This document shows, piece by piece, positions 10,370 to 25,158 of a stretch of 39,286 nt of DNA. The stretch is from the NCBI GenBank assembly GCA_025997755.1, contig BNVA01000004.1:1-39286 (forward strand), in the 5' to 3' direction. The stretch's first letter is position 1. Each line of letters starts with the position of its first letter. The notes beneath the pieces are model-generated. The model made no database searches, had not been told where the DNA came from, and saw only the letters and a program-made list of their open reading frames with translations. Made by a program: the position numbers and the translations under genes. This DNA comes from Spirochaetia bacterium (GTDB lineage: Bacteria; Spirochaetota; Spirochaetia; Treponematales; Breznakiellaceae).

Positions 10370-13300
10370 ATGCTGCGAATTTGCAGGATTTTGGGATGTT
10401 TTGCCGTTCTTGTTTTTGCTGCCTGCGACAGCTATAACCTGCCGCTTGCCCCGCGACTATTGGCGGACGAAAGGTATCTTGAGTCACTCCAGTATATTGA
10501 GATAACCAAACAGCCGGACAAGGTGTTTTACCAGCTTAACCAGCCCTTTGACAGGAGAGGACTTGTTATTACCGGATTTTTTGGCGATCACCATTCCGAA
10601 GACCTTACGGATGTTGCTATTGCCAACGGATTAACGGGTTTCGACAGCGCCTCCATAGGCACAAAGACTATCACGGCAACCGTAAACGAGTTTACCGCAA
10701 CTTTTAGGGTAGTTGTTTACGCTTCCCAAGCCCCCACCGGTTTTCTAAACTACAACGTTACGGTTCCGCTTATTGTGGACAGCGGTAGTTTGAGCGAGGC
10801 ATCCTCCTCGTTCAGGATGTTCAAGGTTGATCCTGCAACTCTGGCTGTAACCAGCACCGATATGCTGCCATACGGCAATTCGGCGCCGAATTGGATAACA
10901 TCGAGAGGCGGCACATTTACCGGAAACAGGACTCTTGATACCGGGCTCTATCTTATAAGACAGGAATTTAAAACCGATCTTAGGGGGCTTATAAAAGCGG
11001 ACTTTATTGATATTCAAGGCGGAAGGACAGTTTTATACACAAGGCACTGGGACGCGGGTGATTTTGTAAGCAGCGGCACAATGAACCCCAACTCAATTTT
11101 GGCTATCGCTGTAACGGTTCGCCCATCTAGGTATTATTTATCCGGCACATTCTCAACTCATGGTATTGAAGTAAAAGCCTTGCATCTTAACAACACGCTT
11201 ACTACTTTAAAAACTTCGAATGTTGATAATCCTGATATAAACTATTCCGTTGGCGGAACGCCTCTTACATCCGGTATGCCTTTTATGTCGGTTTCCGGTA
11301 TGTCGGTAGGCATGAAAGACATAGACGTTACCTTTACGGATTCGTCAACCGCCCCTCCCGGAACCTTTTCAACATCATTTTCCGTGCCTATAGAGATAGA
11401 CCCGAGCATCGTGGCTTCGCGGACGGAAACTTCAGGCGGCAGTGCGGCGGCTATTTATTATACATCGCTTGCCGCCGCCGTCGATGCGGGAACAAACGGA
11501 ACACCGGCAGACCCTGATTTTATCACACTATTGAATGACCATGACTTTGGCGGCGCGGTCATAGCCGGCGGCAGACACATAGCCCTTTGCGTTCCCGACG
11601 GTTTAATAAAAACGGTTAGCCGCAGCAGTCTATCCGGCAGCCTTTTCAATGTGCAGGCTGGGGCATCTCTAAAGATTTACGGCGGCACCGGCGGGGCATC
11701 TGGACAGCTTATAATTGACGGGAATACAACCGCGGATTCCCCTCTTATCAATGTGGAGAACGGCGGCACCGTAGCCGTTATGAACGGGGTAACGCTTCGT
11801 AACAACAGGAATACAGGGAATGGCGGTGCGGTATCGGTAAACGGAACTTTGGTTATGAACGGTGAAATTACCGGCTGCGAGGCGGCTAACGGCGGCGGTG
11901 TTTACATTGGTAACGGCGGCGCGCTTGATTTACACGGCGTCATATCGTTCTGCACTGCGCGGGATTCAGGCGGCGGCGTGTACGTAAAAGATAACGCGAT
12001 CCGGTTTGTACAAAACGGCGGTGAAATCAGATACAACAGGGCGAACGGTAGCGGCGATAACGGCGGCGGCGGCGTGTACGTCGAAATGACATCAAACGGC
12101 TATTCAATGGAAGGCGGCGTTGTTACAGGGAACATAGCAACAAACAACAAAGGTTCCGGCGTTTTTTTGAAAGGCGGCGGCGGCGGACAAAGTAGTAATT
12201 TTACCATAGGCAGCGCCAGCACCGCGTATATAGCGCAGAATAACGATGTCTGGCTCGGAGAGAACCGTTATATAAAGGTGGATATGCCCCCGCTTTCCGC
12301 AAAAGCGGCTTACATTACGGCGTTAAGCGCGGTTAGGGGCGGGACTATTGTTTCAGGCGGCGGTATTACCAATCAAGCCGATGTGAACAAGTTTGTTCTT
12401 ACCGACGGACGCGGCTTAGTGTTTAAATCCGATGTCCCATATAATAGCGGCATCGTTGAACAATCGGAGCTTTACATAAGCGGTTCCGGCAATGATACGA
12501 CAGGTGTGGGAACAAGTGTTTTGCCATACAAGTCTCTTGTTAAGGCGGCAGGACTTGTACCCGCAGGCAGCGCCATGACAATTCATGTCGTAGGCAACGC
12601 GCTTGCAGGAGGCTCAACAACCAATATCAGCGATAAAGTGATCACCCTGGTAGGCAACGGCGCGGGCGCGGCTATAGACGGCGAAAACGCACGGCGAATA
12701 CTTGAAATAGGCGCGGGCGGCTCTGTATCCATAGAAAACATAAAATTACACAATGGCAGTGTTGCTGGAAGCGGCGGCGCGGTACTCATAAACGGCGGTA
12801 CGCTTACCATGATTTCAGGCGAGATAAGCGGCAATAAAGCCGACGTCGGCGCGGGCGTGTCCATAAACAGCGGCGCATTTAATTTCCAAGGCGGCATAAT
12901 ACAGGGTAACACCTTTAATAACCCGTCCGCAGGTTCAGGCTCCGGCGTCTATGTCGGAACCGCATCGTCGGCTAACTTTTATATGAAGGGCTCCGCAAAG
13001 GTAACGCACGGCGCCGGTAACCCCGCCGGCAACGATGTATACCTTACACGGGGTAAATATATAAACGTAACCGGAACCATAACAGGCGGAGCGGGGATAA
13101 GCTCGGAAGACGGATTTGGCGGTACTGTTGCCATGCGCAGCGTCGGGGGTACACTAACTTACGCAGAGGCGGCAAAATTTGAAATGGCGGACGGACGCTT
13201 TGTACGCTTTAGCGGCGTCGCTACTCCCTCCGCTAAAATATTCCAGCAAACATTCTACATAGCGTCCGATTCGGTAAACTCCGCCGCCAGCGATACTTTA

Positions 13301-15586
13301 GGCAACGGCACTATAACAAGGCCATACAGATCGCCGCAAAAACCGGTAAATTTGATTAACCTTCCAGCTAACAGTGCTATACTCAATCGCTCCACAGATA
13401 ACTTTGACATAGTTATAGGCGGCTCAATATCAAGCGCCTATGCTATAAGTGACGGCACGCCTATAGGTACAGACGGCATGGTTGATATAAGCGGTCTGTC
13501 GGTTACGCTTCACGGCTATTCAGGCGGTATGTTAAACGCAAACAATTCACGCCGTGTCTTAAATATCAACGGAGCGCGTGTAACGCTTGCCAACGGACTA
13601 ACGCTTACAGGCGGCTCGGTAGCTAGCGGGAACGGCGGCGGCGTTCTTTTAACCGGCGGCACCCTTACCATGACAGGCGGAGAGATAAGCGATAATGGCG
13701 CGTACAAAGGTGGAGGAATCTATGTTGTAGGCAGTTCTGCTAGCAATCCATCGCTTGTAAAAATTACAGGCGGTTCAATTCGGAATAATACCGCTACAAT
13801 AAACTCAGGGAATACTGACGGAGGAGGTGGCATTTCTATATATAATAACGCAAAATTGGAAATGACAGGCGGGCGTATCGCAGATAATGAATCTAAACAC
13901 TATGGCGGAGGTGTTTATTTATACGATACGAGCGCAATTTTTGAAATGTCAGGTGGAGTAATTATCGGTAACAAGGCGCTCTGCGATTCTCAGGGCGGCG
14001 GCGGTGGTGTGATGGCGGATCAAGCTAGTAATTTTACTATTTCCGGCGGTACAATAACCGGAAATGGTATTTCTAGTGGCGAACAATACGGTAAAGGGGT
14101 ATATGTCTGGCAAGATACGATCAAAATGTCGGGTTCCGCAAAAATTGATACCGATGACGTACATCTTCATTCAAATCAAATCACCGTTACAGGCAACCTT
14201 ACCAATCATACCGAAGCGAAGCCGGTAAATATTACGCTTAATGACTACCCCAGTTCTTCTACTAGATTGAAACCAATTCTTAAAACTGATCCCTCTAACA
14301 ACGCACTAATTGCCAACAACTACAAGAAATTCTATGTATTACCTGTACAAACAACAGGCTATTTCTACACACAGCAAGGCTCCGCTCTAAATACCGATAT
14401 GGACAAGGGCTATGCGTATCTGCCGCAAACGGTGTATGTTAAGGGAGATAGTACTGGTGATACAGTAGCTAATACTGGTAGCACACCGGCTCTGGCAAAG
14501 AGAACATTGAATGGTGCATTTGGCGTAGTACCCGGAGGAGGAACTATAACAGTAATAGGACAGCTTACAAGTACATCGCCCGATCAATTAACTGGAGAAA
14601 ATGCTGCGTTTGCTATTCAATCTAAAGGATCAGCAGCATCGCCTATTACCATTACCGGTGTCCGTTCAGGCGGTACCGGCGCCGTAGCATCGCTAGTCAA
14701 ATCCGGCAACTACCGTACTTTGCTTTTAAAAAACTCGTACATCAATTTAGAAAACATTGTTATTTCCGATGCAACTTATAACGGAAGTTACGGCGGCGGC
14801 GGCATAAGGATTTACAGCGGAGGTAGTTTAACACTGGGAGAGGGTGTTATTGTCGGCACAAATTCGGCGCCCTATGGCGGTGGTATTCTGGTGGGCGGCA
14901 ATACAAGTGATTCAAATAACAGCACAGTCGTCATAAAATCCGGCGCAAAGATAATCGGCAATCGCTCAACGTATACCGGCACCGACAAAACAAAAGGCGG
15001 CGGCGGTATACATGTGGGTACTCGCGGCGTACTCATAATAGAAAACGGCGCGTTAGTACAAGGCAACTGGAGTACTTCGGATAGTGGTGGTGGTAATACT
15101 ACACCATCTACACGAGAATACGCTTACGGCGGGGGGATCCAACTAGTAGACGGCGGGCGGGCTGCAATGTCAGGCGGACTTATCACCGGAAACACATCAT
15201 TAACCGGCGGCGGCGTAGATGTTTATGCCGGTAGTTTTACCATGACCGGCGGCACAATAGGCGGAAACACAGCATGGAAGGAAGGCGGAGGCGTTCATCT
15301 TGAAGGAGTTGAATCGGGAGGGCAAAATTCATTTTTCATAATGACAGACGGCGCTATAATAAATAACATGGCGAAGAATACTAACTTATCAAATAATTAC
15401 CCCGCAGGCGGCGGTGGTATAGGTAATTTTGCCGGCAGTGTTTCGATTTCCGGTTCCGGCGTAGTTTCCGGCAACACAACTCAAAACAGCGGGGATGGAA
15501 GTCAGTTCTTCCAACAACATAGAACCTCAACAATTTACAGCGGCACACACACTGGCGCATGGTCGACAAACGACGCTATACCTTAG
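10370..15586 (+). CDS. Giant right-handed beta-helix lipoprotein with Ig-like N-terminus
   Basis: A 1738-residue putative surface lipoprotein. Residues 1-19 end in the lipobox VFAAC. Residues 45-120 look like a bacterial Ig-like domain (ITKQPDKVFYQLNQPFDRRG to ATFRVVVY), and residues 120-350 are beta-rich. From about residue 360 there are four similar super-modules, starting near residues 361, 700, 961 and 1354. Modules 2-4 open with a pattern like YISGSGNDTTG followed by PYKSLVKA, resembling the DUF1565 opening of beta-helix proteins. Each then runs through short repeats of the type GGAVSVNGTLTM, GGEISGN and GGGVYV, as in polymorphic (Pmp-like) proteins. There is no beta-barrel translocator and no sortase motif, so anchoring should be by lipid. 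The likely role is adhesion or glycan binding. The start has no Shine-Dalgarno sequence; the ATG at 10370 is kept because it supplies the basic signal-peptide residues. Confidence 0.88.
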   Translation: MLRICRILGCFAVLVFAACDSYNLPLAPRLLADERYLESLQYIEITKQPDKVFYQLNQPFDRRGLVITGFFGDHHSEDLTDVAIANGLTGFDSASIGTKTITATVNEFTATFRVVVYASQAPTGFLNYNVTVPLIVDSGSLSEASSSFRMFKVDPATLAVTSTDMLPYGNSAPNWITSRGGTFTGNRTLDTGLYLIRQEFKTDLRGLIKADFIDIQGGRTVLYTRHWDAGDFVSSGTMNPNSILAIAVTVRPSRYYLSGTFSTHGIEVKALHLNNTLTTLKTSNVDNPDINYSVGGTPLTSGMPFMSVSGMSVGMKDIDVTFTDSSTAPPGTFSTSFSVPIEIDPSIVASRTETSGGSAAAIYYTSLAAAVDAGTNGTPADPDFITLLNDHDFGGAVIAGGRHIALCVPDGLIKTVSRSSLSGSLFNVQAGASLKIYGGTGGASGQLIIDGNTTADSPLINVENGGTVAVMNGVTLRNNRNTGNGGAVSVNGTLVMNGEITGCEAANGGGVYIGNGGALDLHGVISFCTARDSGGGVYVKDNAIRFVQNGGEIRYNRANGSGDNGGGGVYVEMTSNGYSMEGGVVTGNIATNNKGSGVFLKGGGGGQSSNFTIGSASTAYIAQNNDVWLGENRYIKVDMPPLSAKAAYITALSAVRGGTIVSGGGITNQADVNKFVLTDGRGLVFKSDVPYNSGIVEQSELYISGSGNDTTGVGTSVLPYKSLVKAAGLVPAGSAMTIHVVGNALAGGSTTNISDKVITLVGNGAGAAIDGENARRILEIGAGGSVSIENIKLHNGSVAGSGGAVLINGGTLTMISGEISGNKADVGAGVSINSGAFNFQGGIIQGNTFNNPSAGSGSGVYVGTASSANFYMKGSAKVTHGAGNPAGNDVYLTRGKYINVTGTITGGAGISSEDGFGGTVAMRSVGGTLTYAEAAKFEMADGRFVRFSGVATPSAKIFQQTFYIASDSVNSAASDTLGNGTITRPYRSPQKPVNLINLPANSAILNRSTDNFDIVIGGSISSAYAISDGTPIGTDGMVDISGLSVTLHGYSGGMLNANNSRRVLNINGARVTLANGLTLTGGSVASGNGGGVLLTGGTLTMTGGEISDNGAYKGGGIYVVGSSASNPSLVKITGGSIRNNTATINSGNTDGGGGISIYNNAKLEMTGGRIADNESKHYGGGVYLYDTSAIFEMSGGVIIGNKALCDSQGGGGGVMADQASNFTISGGTITGNGISSGEQYGKGVYVWQDTIKMSGSAKIDTDDVHLHSNQITVTGNLTNHTEAKPVNITLNDYPSSSTRLKPILKTDPSNNALIANNYKKFYVLPVQTTGYFYTQQGSALNTDMDKGYAYLPQTVYVKGDSTGDTVANTGSTPALAKRTLNGAFGVVPGGGTITVIGQLTSTSPDQLTGENAAFAIQSKGSAASPITITGVRSGGTGAVASLVKSGNYRTLLLKNSYINLENIVISDATYNGSYGGGGIRIYSGGSLTLGEGVIVGTNSAPYGGGILVGGNTSDSNNSTVVIKSGAKIIGNRSTYTGTDKTKGGGGIHVGTRGVLIIENGALVQGNWSTSDSGGGNTTPSTREYAYGGGIQLVDGGRAAMSGGLITGNTSLTGGGVDVYAGSFTMTGGTIGGNTAWKEGGGVHLEGVESGGQNSFFIMTDGAIINNMAKNTNLSNNYPAGGGGIGNFAGSVSISGSGVVSGNTTQNSGDGSQFFQQHRTSTIYSGTHTGAWSTNDAIP

Positions 15587-15672: not shown

Positions 15673-15972
15673 ATGATACAATCAAGTGTAATTCAGGTGC
15701 GAATTGATACTAAACTAAAAGAAGATGCAGAGAGTCTTTTTTCTGATTTAGGACTGGATATTCCCTCCGCTGTCCGGCTCTTTCTCAAGCAGTCTATAGC
15801 AAGAAATGGCATTCCCTTTTCGGTTAAGCGTGCAAAATCAGAAAAAGAAAAATGGGAAGATGATTTTTATAATCCATATAATGTCGCTTACCTAAAGCAA
15901 GTCCTTGCCGAAATGAAAGATGGAAAAAACCTCGAACATCACGAGTTAATAGAAGTCTATGACGATGCGTGA
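15673..15972 (+). CDS. RelB/DinJ-family antitoxin
   Basis: A 99-residue protein. The N-terminal ribbon-helix-helix reads VIQVRIDTKLKEDAESLF, followed by LGLDIPSAVRLFLKQSIARNGIPF, the classic RelB/DinJ signature that ends in IPF. The C-terminal tail (YNVAYLKQVLAEMKDGKNLEHHELIEV) is the toxin-binding segment. It should bind DNA as a dimer at the palindromes just upstream. The expected toxin gene directly downstream survives only as a C-terminal fragment, so this antitoxin is probably an orphan. It may still act as a repressor or neutralise a toxin encoded elsewhere. Confidence 0.88.
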   Translation: MIQSSVIQVRIDTKLKEDAESLFSDLGLDIPSAVRLFLKQSIARNGIPFSVKRAKSEKEKWEDDFYNPYNVAYLKQVLAEMKDGKNLEHHELIEVYDDA

Positions 15973-16210: not shown

Positions 16211-18238
16211 CTACATACCATACAAAAAGTTGTAGACAATTTCGTCCGCAAGTACTTTTTTTCCGTAATCGCGGGTTTCCGTAAGCTCTATTGTCTCCAA
16301 AAAAAGATCGTCGCTTAAAGTTGAATTACGCCGCCAACGGCTTACGCGGGTTATTCCACCGTTATACGCAAGCAGCGCCAACAGACGGTTTTTCATCCTG
16401 CCTTCAAGCTGTTTGTAGTATGCCGCGCCCAGATGTATGTTTACTTCAGGATTAAAAAGATCAACCTTTCCGAATTTAATGTAGTTGGCAATACCGTCCC
16501 GTGAAAGTTGTCTTGCCATCTCCGCTCCTGTTTCCGGCATAAGTTGGGTAAGACCGCTTGCTCCGGCATGGGATACAATGTCCGGTATACAGATGCTTTC
16601 CGTGCGTATCAATGCGTATAACAGGAAAATGTCCATTCCGGTTTCTTCGGAAAACCGTTCTACAATCTCTTGAAAAGCCCTTGGATAGCGTATTTCAAGG
16701 TCGCGCCTTGTAAGTGTATAGCCCGGGCGGTTCATATACAGAATGGAAAGCCGTATAGAGTCGCCCCAGCAGGCGTTATTCGCAAGATTTTCGGCAAAGC
16801 CGCGCAATTCCTCCGTGCTGAACTGTTCCTGCATAAGTTTGATGTAAGTATACGCATTTACGGCACAGCCGTATTTAAAAAAACCATCTATAAATTGAAA
16901 AGCCTGCGAAGGTGTTGTTTTAGAATCCTTCTTTTTATCTTTTGACTGCTTTGACGAAGTTTCCGCAGGCGGCGCTTTGGGTAAATTAAATTCCTTTTTT
17001 TTAGACAAACGCTCTGCGGCAAGAGATGAATAATAAAACGGCGGCAAGATCAAATCATCAAAATCATCGTTGGTGTAGGCAATCTTATAAAAATCTTCCG
17101 GACCCGCACCGCTGCCCTTTGGCAAACCTAACGCCGCAGCCGCATCTTCCACGCTTATTAAGCCGAAGTACAAGGTGCGTCCCAAAAGATAGGCGTATTT
17201 TGCTATTGTTGCTCCATCGGCGTATTTTTGAACGCAGGGAAAAAAGTAAGCAAGCCCTTCCCACCTCTTTCGGTTTGTGTAGTAAACCGAAATCCGCTCA
17301 AAAAGATCGGCAAAATAAGTTTTGTCCGTCCATTCGCCGCCGTATTTTTCTACTGCCGCGATAGCCTTTGCCCTGCTTTCCGTCCAAGCCATGTCCAGTA
17401 TATACCAAGCGCAGGCGTCCTTCTGCAAAAAATCCGGCGCTATGCCCATAGCCGCATCGAAATTTTCAGTTGCCGCCTTATAATTTCTTAACTGCCTGTT
17501 CATCCTTCCTGCGTAATATAGCAGCAAATACCGGTCTCCATTATTAGTTTCGTTTGAAAGTGAAAGCGATTTCAACTCATCTTCCCAGCGTAAAAATAAC
17601 TCCGTTCCTGTTTTTGCGCTGCCCGAATAAACAAAAGTCTTACCTAAATCTGTTATAAGCTCTTTTTTTGAAAGTATAAGACGTTCATTTTCTTTCAAAG
17701 TTATGTCGAATTGCTTTTTTGCCTCAGAATATGATGATTTTGCAACAAAAAAATGCCCTCTAATGGCGGCAAGTTCCCAATTTTCAAGAATATTTGCGGC
17801 AGGATCATCATCCGCAAGCTGTTTTACCCTTGAAAAAGCCCATTCACGGGCAGAATCAGGCTTTTCATCAAGAAAAAAGTCGATAGTTTCTTGATTTATA
17901 GACTTTTTCTCTCCGCTTAAACCGTTTGCATCCTCAATTTTTTTTATAAGATCAAAGGCAAGTCCCCAGTTTGTTCCGGCGGCTATCGAAGGGTCTTTTG
18001 CGTTTTTTTCGTAGTAAATATCCGGGGAAAAACCTATTAGTTTTTTTGCCGCATCGTTATGCGTAACAGGGTCTTTTAACGCGGTTTCCAAAAATTGAGT
18101 TATTCTTTCATCGTCCGGGTGTTCCTTTTCCAAGAGCAGGGCGGCATAAAACGGAGCCGCGTTGTCAATATTTGCACAGGCATTTAAGCCGGCTATGAAA
18201 AAAAGTAAAATGGAAATTAGACAGTTTCTTACAATCAA
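16211..18238 (-). CDS. Soluble lytic transglycosylase, lipoprotein-like
   Basis: A 675-residue murein transglycosylase that cleaves the MurNAc-GlcNAc bond with 1,6-anhydro product. The N-terminal signal ends in the lipobox GLNAC (C21). A long helical, TPR-like region fills residues 30-520, as in Slt70-type enzymes. The SLT domain is C-terminal, with catalytic E547 in LYALIRTES, then ASGLTQLMPETGAEMA, NPEVNIHLGAAYYKQL and LALLAYNGG. A low-complexity Lys/Ser linker (SSKQSKDKKKDSK) lies near residue 425. The gene begins one base after the stop of the LysM/SBD-like gene, so they are co-transcribed and probably act on the same peptidoglycan sites. Confidence 0.93.
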   Translation of the reverse strand: MIVRNCLISILLFFIAGLNACANIDNAAPFYAALLLEKEHPDDERITQFLETALKDPVTHNDAAKKLIGFSPDIYYEKNAKDPSIAAGTNWGLAFDLIKKIEDANGLSGEKKSINQETIDFFLDEKPDSAREWAFSRVKQLADDDPAANILENWELAAIRGHFFVAKSSYSEAKKQFDITLKENERLILSKKELITDLGKTFVYSGSAKTGTELFLRWEDELKSLSLSNETNNGDRYLLLYYAGRMNRQLRNYKAATENFDAAMGIAPDFLQKDACAWYILDMAWTESRAKAIAAVEKYGGEWTDKTYFADLFERISVYYTNRKRWEGLAYFFPCVQKYADGATIAKYAYLLGRTLYFGLISVEDAAAALGLPKGSGAGPEDFYKIAYTNDDFDDLILPPFYYSSLAAERLSKKKEFNLPKAPPAETSSKQSKDKKKDSKTTPSQAFQFIDGFFKYGCAVNAYTYIKLMQEQFSTEELRGFAENLANNACWGDSIRLSILYMNRPGYTLTRRDLEIRYPRAFQEIVERFSEETGMDIFLLYALIRTESICIPDIVSHAGASGLTQLMPETGAEMARQLSRDGIANYIKFGKVDLFNPEVNIHLGAAYYKQLEGRMKNRLLALLAYNGGITRVSRWRRNSTLSDDLFLETIELTETRDYGKKVLADEIVYNFLYGM

Positions 18239-18239
18239 T

Positions 18240-19262
18240 TTATCTTGGACGCGGCGGTATCTTTATGGTTGTCCCTGCTTTGATTTTGTTAGGATCCCGT
18301 ATTCCGTTGTCCCTCGCAAGGACTTTATAGTACCAGGGGTTCCTGTAAAACGCAGCGGAAACATCCCACAATGTATCGCCCCAGGCAAGTTTGTATGAAA
18401 CACCTTCTTTGGGTATCGTTGCGGGGACTTTGTAGGAAGTAACCGGAGCAGGCGCTCTTTTGCGGGAAGCGTTCGCGGCTTGCGGCGGAGGCGCAACCGG
18501 CTTTATCACCTGAGGAGGAGCTGCCGGTGTAGGCGGCGGAGGCGCTGCAGGCGGGTCTACTTTAACAACCGGAGGCGGCGTTACCGCAGGTTCCTCTTTA
18601 ACTTCGGGAACATTTTCAACAGCTTCTGCAGGCGGCTCATCAACCGGAACAGGCGGCGTTTCAACCGGATTTACCGGAGGCGCAGTCTGCTCGGTATTAA
18701 CAGGAGATGCATCGGTTATCTCTTGCGGGCTTTTTTTAAACACAAAAAACCAAAGCCCAAATCCAATAATCAAAAGGAGCAAGGCTGCCGCGCCTATAAG
18801 AAACAGCATATTTTTAGAAGACTTCTTTTTAGTTTGTTCATCCGCAGAATTTGAATCGCCTTCTTTATCGTCGAAACCCAAATCAAAATCCGGCAAATCT
18901 ACAATGTCGCTTTTTTCTTTCTGCAGTGATTTTAACGAAACCGCAAGACGATTATGTTCGGCATTATCCGCATCATCACTATTAAAGGCTTCCGCCGTTA
19001 TCTCGCCGTCTTCGGTAGAAAAAATGTCCAACTCTATGGAAGGTTCACCTTTTGGCTGTTCCGGTATATTTTCAACAACAACAGTGCCCATATACTGGGC
19101 TTTTTCCATCAACCCGGAAGGATTACGGTATAGGTCTATCTGAACACTTTTTTGATTATCATGCGCTGTAGTTAAAACCAGGCGTTTTTTCGCTACCGTG
19201 TTTTCCGCTAAAATGGGATAAAATTCACCATCAGCAACTTTTATTCCTATCATTGACGCCAT
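18240..19262 (-). CDS. DnaK substrate-binding-like domain, transmembrane helix and LysM
   Basis: A 340-residue bitopic protein. Residues 1-100 look like the beta-sandwich substrate-binding domain of DnaK without the ATPase. IGIKVADGEFYPILAENT, LTTAHDNQKSVQIDLY and GTVVVENIPEQPKGEPSIEL line up with Hsp70 blocks, including the IPxxPKGxPxIE strand. Residues 100-150 are acidic. One helix (152-175, LFLIGAAALLLLIIGFGLWFFVF) follows, then a proline-rich stretch (180-280). A LysM domain (about 290-338) has YKLAWGDTLWDVS and IKAGTTIKIPP. There is no signal peptide, so the N-terminus should be cytoplasmic and LysM periplasmic. The ribosome binding site AAGGAG lies 8 bases before the ATG. It sits between dxs and a lytic transglycosylase. 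A role linking peptide sensing to the wall is inference. Confidence 0.85.
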   Translation of the reverse strand: MASMIGIKVADGEFYPILAENTVAKKRLVLTTAHDNQKSVQIDLYRNPSGLMEKAQYMGTVVVENIPEQPKGEPSIELDIFSTEDGEITAEAFNSDDADNAEHNRLAVSLKSLQKEKSDIVDLPDFDLGFDDKEGDSNSADEQTKKKSSKNMLFLIGAAALLLLIIGFGLWFFVFKKSPQEITDASPVNTEQTAPPVNPVETPPVPVDEPPAEAVENVPEVKEEPAVTPPPVVKVDPPAAPPPPTPAAPPQVIKPVAPPPQAANASRKRAPAPVTSYKVPATIPKEGVSYKLAWGDTLWDVSAAFYRNPWYYKVLARDNGIRDPNKIKAGTTIKIPPRPR

Positions 19263-19315: not shown

Positions 19316-21184
19316 TTAGTTTTTTGTGCTAGTGCCAGACACTGCCGCCGCTATTCCTTGACCGTCAAGACCGGCTTCGGCAAGTAGTTCCGCGCGGGAG
19401 GCGTGAGCGTAGAATTTGTCGCCGGCATTCAGCGTAACAACAGATGCCGGACATTTTTTGCGCAGGGCAAGCTCTGCGGCTGCCTCTCCTATCCCGCCGT
19501 TTTTTATACCCTCTTCCACAAAAAATATTTTTTCGTAACTGTTCATTATCAAGGCAAGATGATCCTCGTCAAGCGGTTTTATAAAACGCAGATTATATAG
19601 GTCGGCATTTATCCCTTTTTTCTCAAGAATGTTTACCGCTTCAAACGCCTGCTCATAGAGGCTGCCTGTAAAAGCTATGCAGATTTTTCCGCCGCTCTGT
19701 TTTACAAAAACGCCCCGACCCTCAATCAATGGGATGGGAAAAGCCGCGTTATCGGGCGGCAAGGGCGCTTTCGGATAGCGGATCATACAGGGTCCTTCAC
19801 AGGCAAACGCCCAAGCAAGCATTAGGTTAAGCTCCGTTTCCGATGCCGGACAGAGTATCGTCATATTAGGGATGGTGCGGAACAGACTCAAATCAAAAAG
19901 CCCCTGATGCGTCTCCCCGTCGCCGGAAACAAAACCCGCCCTGTCAACTGCAAAAACAACGTTAAGATTTTGAAGCGCCGTGTCATGTATAAGCTGGTCT
20001 ACGGAGCGCTGGACAAATGTTGAGTATATCGCCGCCACCGGCTTCATTCCCGATGCGGCAAGCGCCGCCGCGAAACTTACGCAGTGTTCCTCCGCTATGC
20101 CTACGTCAAAGAAACGATCCGGAAATGCCTCCCTAAACTGGGAAAGTCCTGTCCCCTTCTCCATTGCGGCTGTCAACGCTACGATACGCTTATCTTTTTT
20201 TGCCGCCTCCAAAACCGCGCTGCCGAACGCGCTTGTCCATGAGGGAACAGGCGGTTTTATTTCGCCTGATTCCGCCAAAAAACTATTCGTCGAATGAAAG
20301 ACACCGGGCGCTTTTTCCGCAGGCTCATAGCCCTTGCCTTTTTGCGTAACAACATGAACGACAACAGGCCTGTCAAGATTTTTTACATCGCGCAGCACCT
20401 TTTCAAGCGCCTGCAAATTATGTCCTTCGATAGGACCCGCGTATTCAAAACCCAGATCGACAAAGAGGTTGTCATTGTAAAAGACGGCTTTTACCGCACG
20501 TTTAAGGCGCACAACAAGTTTAAAAAAGAATGCGCCCACAACCGGTATTTTTTGTACAAGCTGATCAAAACTACGCCTGAAATATTGATATTTTGCCTTC
20601 ATGGAAAGGCGGCTCAAATATTCCGAGATACCGCCGACGCTTTTTCCTATCGACATCTTGTTATCATTTAAAATGACAATGAGCGGCAATCTAAGCTGCC
20701 CCGCATGAGAGAGGGCTTCGTAGGCGAGTCCGCCCGTGATCGCACCATCCCCTATTACGGCGATACATTTTCCATCGCCGCCGTGCATAATCTCACCTAC
20801 AAGCAGCCCCAGGGCTATTGAGACCGAAGTGGAGGCATGTCCCGTGTTAAAGGCATCATGAGGGCTTTCAGATATTTTTGGAAATCCCGCTATGCCGCCT
20901 TTTTGCCTGAGCGTGGAAAATTGCCCAAACCTGCCGGTGAGCAATTTGTGCGCATAACACTGATGACCCACATCCCAGACTATTTTATCTTTTGGGGTAT
21001 CAAAAACACGGTGCAGAGCCAGTGTAAGCTCCACCGTTCCCAAATTTGATGAGAGATGACCGCCGTTTTTACTTACCGTCTCGACTATCTTACCGCGAAT
21101 CTCCTGCGCAAGCGTTATAAGCTGTGAGTGATCAAGACTCTTTAAATCGTGCGGATGCCGTATATTTTCCAGTAGTGAAAACAA
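19316..21184 (-). CDS. dxs: 1-deoxy-D-xylulose-5-phosphate synthase
   Basis: A thiamine diphosphate enzyme of 622 residues that condenses pyruvate and glyceraldehyde 3-phosphate to DXP, feeding both isoprenoid and thiamine/PLP synthesis. Signatures are GGHLSSNLGTVELTLALH, VWDVGHQCYAHKLLTGR, the ThDP-binding block GDGAITGGLAYEALSHAG with NDNKMSIG, then VGIAEEHCVSFAAALA and MIRYPK. The length fits the family and no key block is missing. It follows a tiny basic-protein gene by 4 bases and precedes the SBD/LysM gene by 53 bases. With dxr in the same window, the MEP route is used. TATAAT can be read on this strand in the gap after the gene (19307-19302), so the next genes may also have their own promoter. 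Confidence 0.96.
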   Translation of the reverse strand: MFSLLENIRHPHDLKSLDHSQLITLAQEIRGKIVETVSKNGGHLSSNLGTVELTLALHRVFDTPKDKIVWDVGHQCYAHKLLTGRFGQFSTLRQKGGIAGFPKISESPHDAFNTGHASTSVSIALGLLVGEIMHGGDGKCIAVIGDGAITGGLAYEALSHAGQLRLPLIVILNDNKMSIGKSVGGISEYLSRLSMKAKYQYFRRSFDQLVQKIPVVGAFFFKLVVRLKRAVKAVFYNDNLFVDLGFEYAGPIEGHNLQALEKVLRDVKNLDRPVVVHVVTQKGKGYEPAEKAPGVFHSTNSFLAESGEIKPPVPSWTSAFGSAVLEAAKKDKRIVALTAAMEKGTGLSQFREAFPDRFFDVGIAEEHCVSFAAALAASGMKPVAAIYSTFVQRSVDQLIHDTALQNLNVVFAVDRAGFVSGDGETHQGLFDLSLFRTIPNMTILCPASETELNLMLAWAFACEGPCMIRYPKAPLPPDNAAFPIPLIEGRGVFVKQSGGKICIAFTGSLYEQAFEAVNILEKKGINADLYNLRFIKPLDEDHLALIMNSYEKIFFVEEGIKNGGIGEAAAELALRKKCPASVVTLNAGDKFYAHASRAELLAEAGLDGQGIAAAVSGTSTKN

Positions 21185-23622: not shown

Positions 23623-25158
23623 ATGGCTTCCAACGATAAAAAAACAATAGTTAAAAACGAAGATTCATCAAATAAAAATGAGCTTATAAAACGGTTTAAG
23701 GCAAATCCTTTTATTTTTATTGGTACTTTTGTGGTTTTGATTATCGTAATAATCGCTTTTGTGCTGGTACCGGCTATAGTACCGGGGGCAGCCGATGCGA
23801 ATATTGCAAAATTAACTTTCGGTAAATGGGATAAAACGCCCATCGTTTATACGGGTAACAATTATTTTTCCAAGATGAGGGAACAATATTCGCGTTACGC
23901 AGAGGTTTACCGGTTAAACGATTATCAGGTTTGGCTTTACTCTTATCAGTCTACTGTTGTACGCACCGCCATTCTGGACATCATGCAGAAGTCAAAGTAC
24001 GATCCGCCCGCCGAATTGATCGACAAAAGGGTTGCCGAATTGCCGGATTTTCAGGAAAACGGACGTTTTTCCGCCGTTAGGTATAACGAGATTGATCCTG
24101 CGCGCCGTTTGGCTTTGTGGCAGGATGTCAGGAATGACACCATAGCAACCCGCTACATAGACGATATTTTTACAATTCAATACTCAAAAGCTGAGTCGGA
24201 TTTCATAGGCGGCATGGCTTCAAATCAGCGTAAGTTTAAAATGGTATCCTATCCGTACGAAAAGTATCCCGATAGCGAAATTGCCGCTTTTGTTGAAAAA
24301 AATCCCGATCTTTTCCGCCTTCTACACTTGTCGCAGATCAGCATAAATTCCGACGAACTTGATGCAAGAAAGGTATGGGAAGCCGTCAGCGCCAATCCGG
24401 CAAGTTTTGAGGATACGGCGCGTTCCCGGTCGGAGGACAACTTCTCGGAACGGGGCGGAGACGCGGGCACCCGTTACTTTTTTGATCTTGTAGGCGTAGT
24501 AAACGATGATGCCGACAGACGCTCACTTTTGAGCTTAATTAAAGGCTCCATAAGCCCCGTCTACAAAACTCCGTCCGGGTGGGCGTTCTTTAGGGCGGAA
24601 GAAAATGCGGTAAACGCAGACACAAAAGATGCGGCGGCATTGGAAAGAATACGCGCTTATATGATGGACAGTGAGCGGGGAGCTATAGAGGACTGGCTTG
24701 TTGAACAGGCGGAAAGTTTTGCGGCTAGGGCAAAAATCGTAGGGTTTGAATCTGCCGCCGTGGTTAGAAACCTTCAGGTTTCCGAATTCGGGCCCCTGCC
24801 CATAAACTATGGAGATGCAGGAATATTCGCCACGTTATCGTCGTTTTCTGCGCCGGAATTGCAATCGGCGGCTTACAACGATAATTTTTGGAAAACTGCA
24901 TGGTCAACACCCATAGGTCAGCCTTCCGCGCCTATAGTGGTGAGCGGCAGCGAAAGCAGCGTGATCGTTATCTACCCTGTTGAAGAAATTTCAGGCGACG
25001 AAACGGCGGCGGAAAATTCAAGCGAAAGTTTCCTGTCGTATTGGGCGGAAAATGAAAAAAGCAACAGTATAGAAAGTACTATAGTCAACAGTTCAAAATT
25101 TTCCGATAATTTCTTTTCAACCTATATAGGTTTGTTCAGCAATTTACAGGGGTTTTAA
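23623..25158 (+). CDS. Membrane-anchored PpiD/SurA-like peptidyl-prolyl isomerase
   Basis: A 511-residue protein with a short basic cytoplasmic N-terminus and one helix near residues 28-52 (FIFIGTFVVLIIVIIAFVLVPAIV), as in PpiD. A SurA_N-like helical region follows. A parvulin-type domain (about 225-330) has LLHLSQISI, then SFEDTARSRSEDNFSERGGD, ISPVYKTPSGWAFFRAE. The C-terminal helical part completes the chaperone. PpiD and SurA help fold exported proteins at the periplasmic face. Isomerase activity is uncertain because the parvulin active-site residues are only partly recognisable. It begins after a terminator, so it has its own promoter, and ends 9 bases before the glycosyltransferase gene. 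Confidence 0.82.
   Translation: MASNDKKTIVKNEDSSNKNELIKRFKANPFIFIGTFVVLIIVIIAFVLVPAIVPGAADANIAKLTFGKWDKTPIVYTGNNYFSKMREQYSRYAEVYRLNDYQVWLYSYQSTVVRTAILDIMQKSKYDPPAELIDKRVAELPDFQENGRFSAVRYNEIDPARRLALWQDVRNDTIATRYIDDIFTIQYSKAESDFIGGMASNQRKFKMVSYPYEKYPDSEIAAFVEKNPDLFRLLHLSQISINSDELDARKVWEAVSANPASFEDTARSRSEDNFSERGGDAGTRYFFDLVGVVNDDADRRSLLSLIKGSISPVYKTPSGWAFFRAEENAVNADTKDAAALERIRAYMMDSERGAIEDWLVEQAESFAARAKIVGFESAAVVRNLQVSEFGPLPINYGDAGIFATLSSFSAPELQSAAYNDNFWKTAWSTPIGQPSAPIVVSGSESSVIVIYPVEEISGDETAAENSSESFLSYWAENEKSNSIESTIVNSSKFSDNFFSTYIGLFSNLQGF

Follow-up and report, generated by a model that had tools for sequence, protein, structure and literature searches.

The window, a 39,286-nucleotide stretch of a Spirochaetia contig taken as a whole, carries on its minus strand a gene whose product joins an Hsp70 beta-substrate-binding domain (beta-SBD) to a LysM domain through a single transmembrane (TM) helix (Table 1). 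The open reading frame (ORF) matches the Hsp70 model PF00012 at residues 5-100 (profile positions 394-491), and both this match and the LysM match exceed the curated Pfam cutoffs. The gene lies between a dxs-like gene and the gene for SltF, which is above the NF047373 family cutoff, starts 1 nt after the SBD gene, and has an N terminus that looks lipoprotein-like by eye.

Table 1. The SBD gene, its parts, and the adjacent genes (positions in the window)
Feature	Positions	Strand	Basis
SBD-TM-LysM gene, 340 aa	18240..19262	-	ORF translation
Hsp70 beta-SBD (residues 1-112; eight strands; predicted cytoplasmic)	18927..19262	-	
LPDFD linear motif, residues 123-127, cytoplasmic linker	18882..18896	-	recurs or is repeated in relatives
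Transmembrane helix, single, residues 150-175, preceded by KKKSSK	18738..18815	-	AlphaFold helix, hydropathy
Proline-rich spacer spanning residues 180-283, predicted periplasmic	18414..18725	-	sequence, low pLDDT
LysM region spanning residues 284-340, with the Pfam match at 295-336	18243..18413	-	
SltF, BB0259-type flagellar lytic transglycosylase	16211..18238	-	NF047373 390 bits, PF01464
dxs-like gene, upstream of the SBD gene, same strand	19316..21184	-	identity by eye

Several other genes lie on the plus strand of the window. A lipoprotein-like, repeat-rich protein of 1738 aa (10370-15586) has no Pfam match at E 1e-5, and a RelB-type antitoxin gene (PF04221) is found at 15673-15972. On the other side are a lipoprotein-like protein of the clostripain family (C11; 21418-23160) and an ORF with weak, below-cutoff SurA_N/rotamase matches (23623-25158), directly followed by an MptE-like protein (PF01973; 25165-26805). 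The anti-phage models searched gave no match.

Domain architecture and predicted topology

A sequence-only reading of this DNA had described an N-terminal Hsp70 beta-SBD without an ATPase, followed by a TM helix and a LysM domain, and PF00012, LysM, and AlphaFold confirm that description. In the AlphaFold models, residues 4-112 contain eight strands, residues 150/151-175 form a helix, and a LysM fold is also predicted. Sequence searches of PDB structures recovered solved Hsp70 SBDs from E 1.1e-6, or from E 2e-13 with a profile built on 41 relatives. A structure search with the predicted model returned DnaK and BiP as top matches, plus other Hsp70 SBDs. As modeled, the domain is an Hsp70 beta-SBD. 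No nucleotide-binding domain was found in the ORF, and a DnaK query had no match anywhere in the window; because the upstream gene is dxs-like, we could exclude an ATPase domain before the SBD, including the missed upstream gene whose possibility the reading had raised.

The SBD starts at residue 1 and so leaves no room for a DnaK-type LLLDVTP linker. The same start is seen in 23 of the 41 aligned ORFs, and the rows of the other 18 were trimmed at the domain start, so that the gap over the LLL columns in 41/41 arises partly by construction. The NTTIP loop of three spirochaete DnaKs is shorter by two residues in the window protein and in all 41 relatives. No helical lid (SBD-alpha) is predicted; the stretch between the SBD and the TM helix is disordered apart from a single short helix (114-117 or 110-122). 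Without a nucleotide-binding domain, linker, or lid, the protein is therefore not an Hsp70 chaperone, although the Hsp70 peptide clamp is present. It shares with DnaK the beta-SBD fold and hydrophobic or identical residues at groove positions and, unlike DnaK, is membrane bound.

The reading had also placed the SBD inside and the LysM domain outside the membrane, and prediction supports this layout. The window protein lacks a signal peptide and shows by hydropathy one helix, with four K/R residues before it and one after. Across 48 relatives, such charges are more numerous before the TM helix (N-in) in 31, equal in 12, and more numerous after it in 5. Based on these two features, the N terminus is predicted to be inside, so that the SBD and linker motifs would be cytoplasmic and the LysM domain would face the wall.

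This layout is reminiscent of HubP and FimV, which also have LysM outside and one TM helix and whose own cytoplasmic part is acidic, with repeats in HubP (PMC12918733). The LysM-like domain of P. putida FimV is reported to be needed for polar anchoring (PMC12918733). However, the order is reversed in the window protein, with the N terminus inside and LysM at the C terminus, there is no signal peptide, and the SBD replaces the C-terminal TPR (FimV) domain. The likeness is one of layout and not of demonstrated sequence kinship.

Conservation of the peptide groove and linker motif

Window residues I7, V40, Q37, and I76 align with I, V, Q, and I of spirochaete DnaK, which we take to be equivalent to DnaK I401, V436, Q433, and I472. 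We compared ten groove positions, assigned from the peptide contacts of DnaK, with the remaining columns of the alignment. Among 41 diverse relatives, information averaged 3.63 bits at the groove and 2.62 over all columns; none of 20,000 random draws reached the groove mean, and P was 0.00035 against hydrophobic columns. Among 119 close relatives, the groove reached 4.10 bits versus 3.44 (P 0.0024 for random and 0.00135 for hydrophobic columns). Q37 is invariant in both sets. At nine positions that presumably face the ATPase domain in DnaK, conservation fell below chance in the close set (P 0.019) but not among the diverse relatives (P 0.29). K8, F14, P16, Y57, and D94, all outside the groove list, are also among the best conserved columns.

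Groove conservation thus suggests, rather than proves, a working peptide site, and it bears on two other explanations. The SBD could be an inert relic of the fold that spaces or dimerizes the protein. A structural use of this kind occurs in the PDB: the eukaryotic protein FAP363, chain 5F in the structure of a ciliary doublet (6u42), matches the SBD and is judged from its length to lack the Hsp70 motor. Given that the groove ranks with the most conserved columns and that Q37 is kept in 41/41 diverse relatives, we regard a relic as scarcely probable at all. Alternatively, the protein could be a sensor that reports cytoplasmic peptide or unfolded-protein load to the wall, a link to peptide status that the sequence-only reading had proposed. 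The conserved site would suit a sensor, and a CHASE2-guanylate cyclase, a signaling protein, is a neighbor in 5 of 52 SBD loci. However, the protein has no output domain and the cyclase is not a constant neighbor. The link gained no direct support; conservation suggests that the site is still used, and a sensor is very unlikely.

Between the SBD and the TM helix, the linker ranges from 24 to 526 aa in 48 relatives and is mostly acidic, with clear acidic repeats in long relatives (e.g., L061, L064, and L079). The window linker has 41 aa, 27% D/E, and one copy of LPDFDL, of which P124, D125, and F126 show little or no variation in A1 and A4. The 48 linkers contain 71 instances of the pattern [ILVMF]PD[FMLI], spread over 29 of them, compared with a mean of 2.9 and a maximum of 10 in 1,000 shuffles, for a pattern picked after viewing the alignments and in rows from related genomes, whose copies are not independent. 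It appears once in periplasmic spacers and nine times in the L064 linker. The other 19 linkers lack it, as do 29 of the 30 Borrelia-like proteins. Persistence of a short motif in a linker that barely aligns points to a binding partner. Binding of the motif to its own SBD in cis was considered and rejected, as AlphaFold did not place residues 121-130 confidently (mean pLDDT 46 and 56); these values neither show nor exclude binding between molecules. By eye, a second motif, [DGN]LY[DEN], lies 20-35 residues before the TM helix in several relatives (L061, L065, L069, L072, L076, L083, and others).

Distribution and coupling to sltF

Of 7,994 candidates scored in the protein search, 1,349 reached E<=1e-3, and both Pfam domains are present in 118 of the best 120 of these homologs. 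The reading had suggested seeking this architecture in other spirochaetes; among the matches listed, names given with an organism are "Hsp70 family protein" or "LysM ... protein" from Treponema. At E<=1e-18, a threshold set after seeing that DnaK-sized long ORFs begin at 1.5e-16 and one that misses the Borrelia-like form, 78 of 296 Spirochaetota genomes encode a stand-alone SBD. FliG is present in 278 of these genomes, and the stand-alone SBD occurs in 78/278 FliG-positive versus 0/18 FliG-negative genomes (Fisher P 0.005, which is too hopeful because the genomes are related, with kinship uncorrected and the cutoff chosen afterwards). A clostridial match covering residues 147-177 only (L012) was excluded, and L013-L048, short or duplicates, are outside the neighbor counts. 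Literature searches, with most subscription journals outside their scope, gave no listed title on the SBD protein and no paper on BB0260 or TP0042/TP0043.

The LysM matches that the first profile gave in small genomes of Borrelia-like type and in large ones (5-6 Mb) proved to be other proteins, namely, a lipoprotein-like, BB0323-like LysM protein and LysM proteins with different N-terminal parts. L091 and L092 hold a different single-TM LysM protein with its own N-terminal part; in their genomes, the SBD search gave no more than weak, DnaK-level matches.

The reading had noted a lytic transglycosylase beside the gene, and this pairing was borne out, with the neighbor being the flagellum-assembly transglycosylase. 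At E<=1e-10, 275 of the 296 genomes have a match to the BB0259-type model NF047373, which is above its cutoff in 99 of them, compared with 0 of 14 control genomes; the coupling count covers solely these 99. An SBD ORF lies upstream of SltF on the same strand in 92 (91 scripted, plus G003 read from L003), two of which (G183 and G247) have SBD E-values of >1e-3. A first count had found SltF following the SBD gene in 46 of 52 loci. The SltF ORF start was readable in 86 of the 91 re-measured pairs, and the distance from SBD stop to SltF start is <=120 nt, or an overlap, in 84 of them. The exceptions are G276 (780 nt, with a LysM ORF between) and G260 (329 nt, with a short ORF); in the remaining 5 pairs, the SltF model match begins 49-68 nt downstream of the SBD stop. 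Only three genomes have SltF in an intact context without an upstream SBD gene: in G281 a different LysM protein occupies this place, in G272 the SBD-LysM gene lies elsewhere, and G298 has none. In four others (G224, G194, G255, and G271), contig ends interrupt the locus.

SltF, unlike the SBD protein, is an enzyme. In Borrelia, BB0259 activity is reported to be required for the hook to cross peptidoglycan, and BB0259 to interact with FlgJ (PMC8517470). Gene pairing can, however, reflect shared expression alone. TP0046-TP0048 have been tied to motility (Titz et al., PMC2386257), and TP0048 is called CcmA (PMC5015957). Counting ORFs in L088 from a bactofilin-like ORF puts the SBD gene near TP0042, and as the TP0046-TP0048 cluster lies some genes away from the SBD gene, its motility link is only suggestive.

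Because the SBD gene ends close to sltF or overlaps it, its product could act on nascent SltF. Together with the conserved groove, this would suit a membrane-bound, ATP-free holdase or targeting chaperone that binds SltF, or other proteins destined for export, ahead of translocation. Such a protein would have neither a lid nor an ATPase for a release cycle and would not need the LysM domain or linker motifs, and we consider it rather unlikely.

The chief alternative to a flagellar scaffold is a broader role in the envelope. The protein may be a general factor for division, polar growth, or wall anchoring, inherited within an old SBD-SltF-UppP-FtsK cluster. Of 52 SBD loci, many of which are too short for this count, 17 have FtsK downstream in the same orientation (16 at 2.2-3.2 kb; L087 at 31 nt), and a UppP-like ORF is seen by eye between SltF and FtsK in L104, L105, L109, L111, L114, and L173. 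In G241, G269, and G152, SBD-LysM adjoins FtsK with no SltF at E 1e-10. FliG_C matches are weak in these three, but FliF is present in all of them, and a reading of them as nonflagellate was rejected; the absence of SltF stands. Against a general envelope factor, the stand-alone SBD is missing from all 18 FliG-lacking genomes at E<=1e-18 and the neighbor is flagellar in 92 of 99, which leaves it unlikely, though with a real share of probability.

The order SBD, SltF, UppP-like, and FtsK recurs far from the lineage of the window and may mark a wall, flagellum, and division cluster. A divergent neighbor of the SBD gene clusters in 17 of 52 loci. Its example at L082:8749-10098 has an N-terminal hydrophobic stretch, TPR, and an Mrr_cat match, and similar divergent ORFs are seen by eye in L103, L114, L108, L111, L170, L173, and L175.

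LysM is variable: of the 92 SBD ORFs adjoining SltF, 52 have it in the same ORF and 40 have no match. The latter comprise 30 Borrelia-like proteins, G276 (LysM in a separate adjacent ORF), and nine others. The Borrelia-like relative was found only through gene order, its genomes being judged Borrelia-like by size and gene order, and its N-terminal domain aligns with the SBD profile with an hhalign probability of 95.3 (P 2.1e-8, 76 columns, 20 sequences). Twenty-nine of the 30 have at least one predicted TM helix, the last near the C terminus after a long acidic stretch; G260, a short ORF, has none. Two genomes (G052 and G145) encode two SBD proteins, with the LysM-less one beside SltF and the LysM-bearing one elsewhere. 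The SBD, linker, and TM helix therefore form the constant unit, to which LysM has been added or from which it has been lost.

A candidate scaffold for flagellum assembly

Our best explanation, which we hold with even confidence for and against, is that the SBD-TM-LysM protein is a spirochaete membrane scaffold for flagellum assembly at SltF. The cytoplasmic beta-SBD would act as an ATP-independent, lidless clamp on a short stretch of a partner protein, and the acidic linker, often with more docking motifs of the LPDFD type, would hold another partner. One helix would span the inner membrane, and LysM, in the many lineages that have it, would grip peptidoglycan, a binding predicted from the domain. 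The SBD gene and sltF probably share one transcript. Such a scaffold would most likely tie a flagellar or polar cytoplasmic part to the wall patch that SltF opens for the hook, with LysM or the membrane keeping the assembly where SltF acts. The sequence-only reading had also offered a scaffold for wall enzymes; this idea fits best and is here made specific to the flagellum, although LysM is dispensable, being absent from 40 of the 92 ORFs.

We see a slim chance that the protein is a self-assembling counterpart of HubP, in which each molecule would take up, in its SBD groove, LPDFD-type motifs from other copies, forming a wall-anchored membrane patch that collects parts for flagellar assembly. 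Motif number, one in the window and several in long relatives, would then tune the patch beside SltF.

The SBD protein encoded beside SltF is probably an undescribed assembly scaffold. If so, the Hsp70 peptide clamp would have been reused without ATP as a docking module within a membrane scaffold. A factor tied to opening the wall for periplasmic flagella would also have been overlooked in spirochaetes, including in genomes resembling those of the syphilis and Lyme disease agents.
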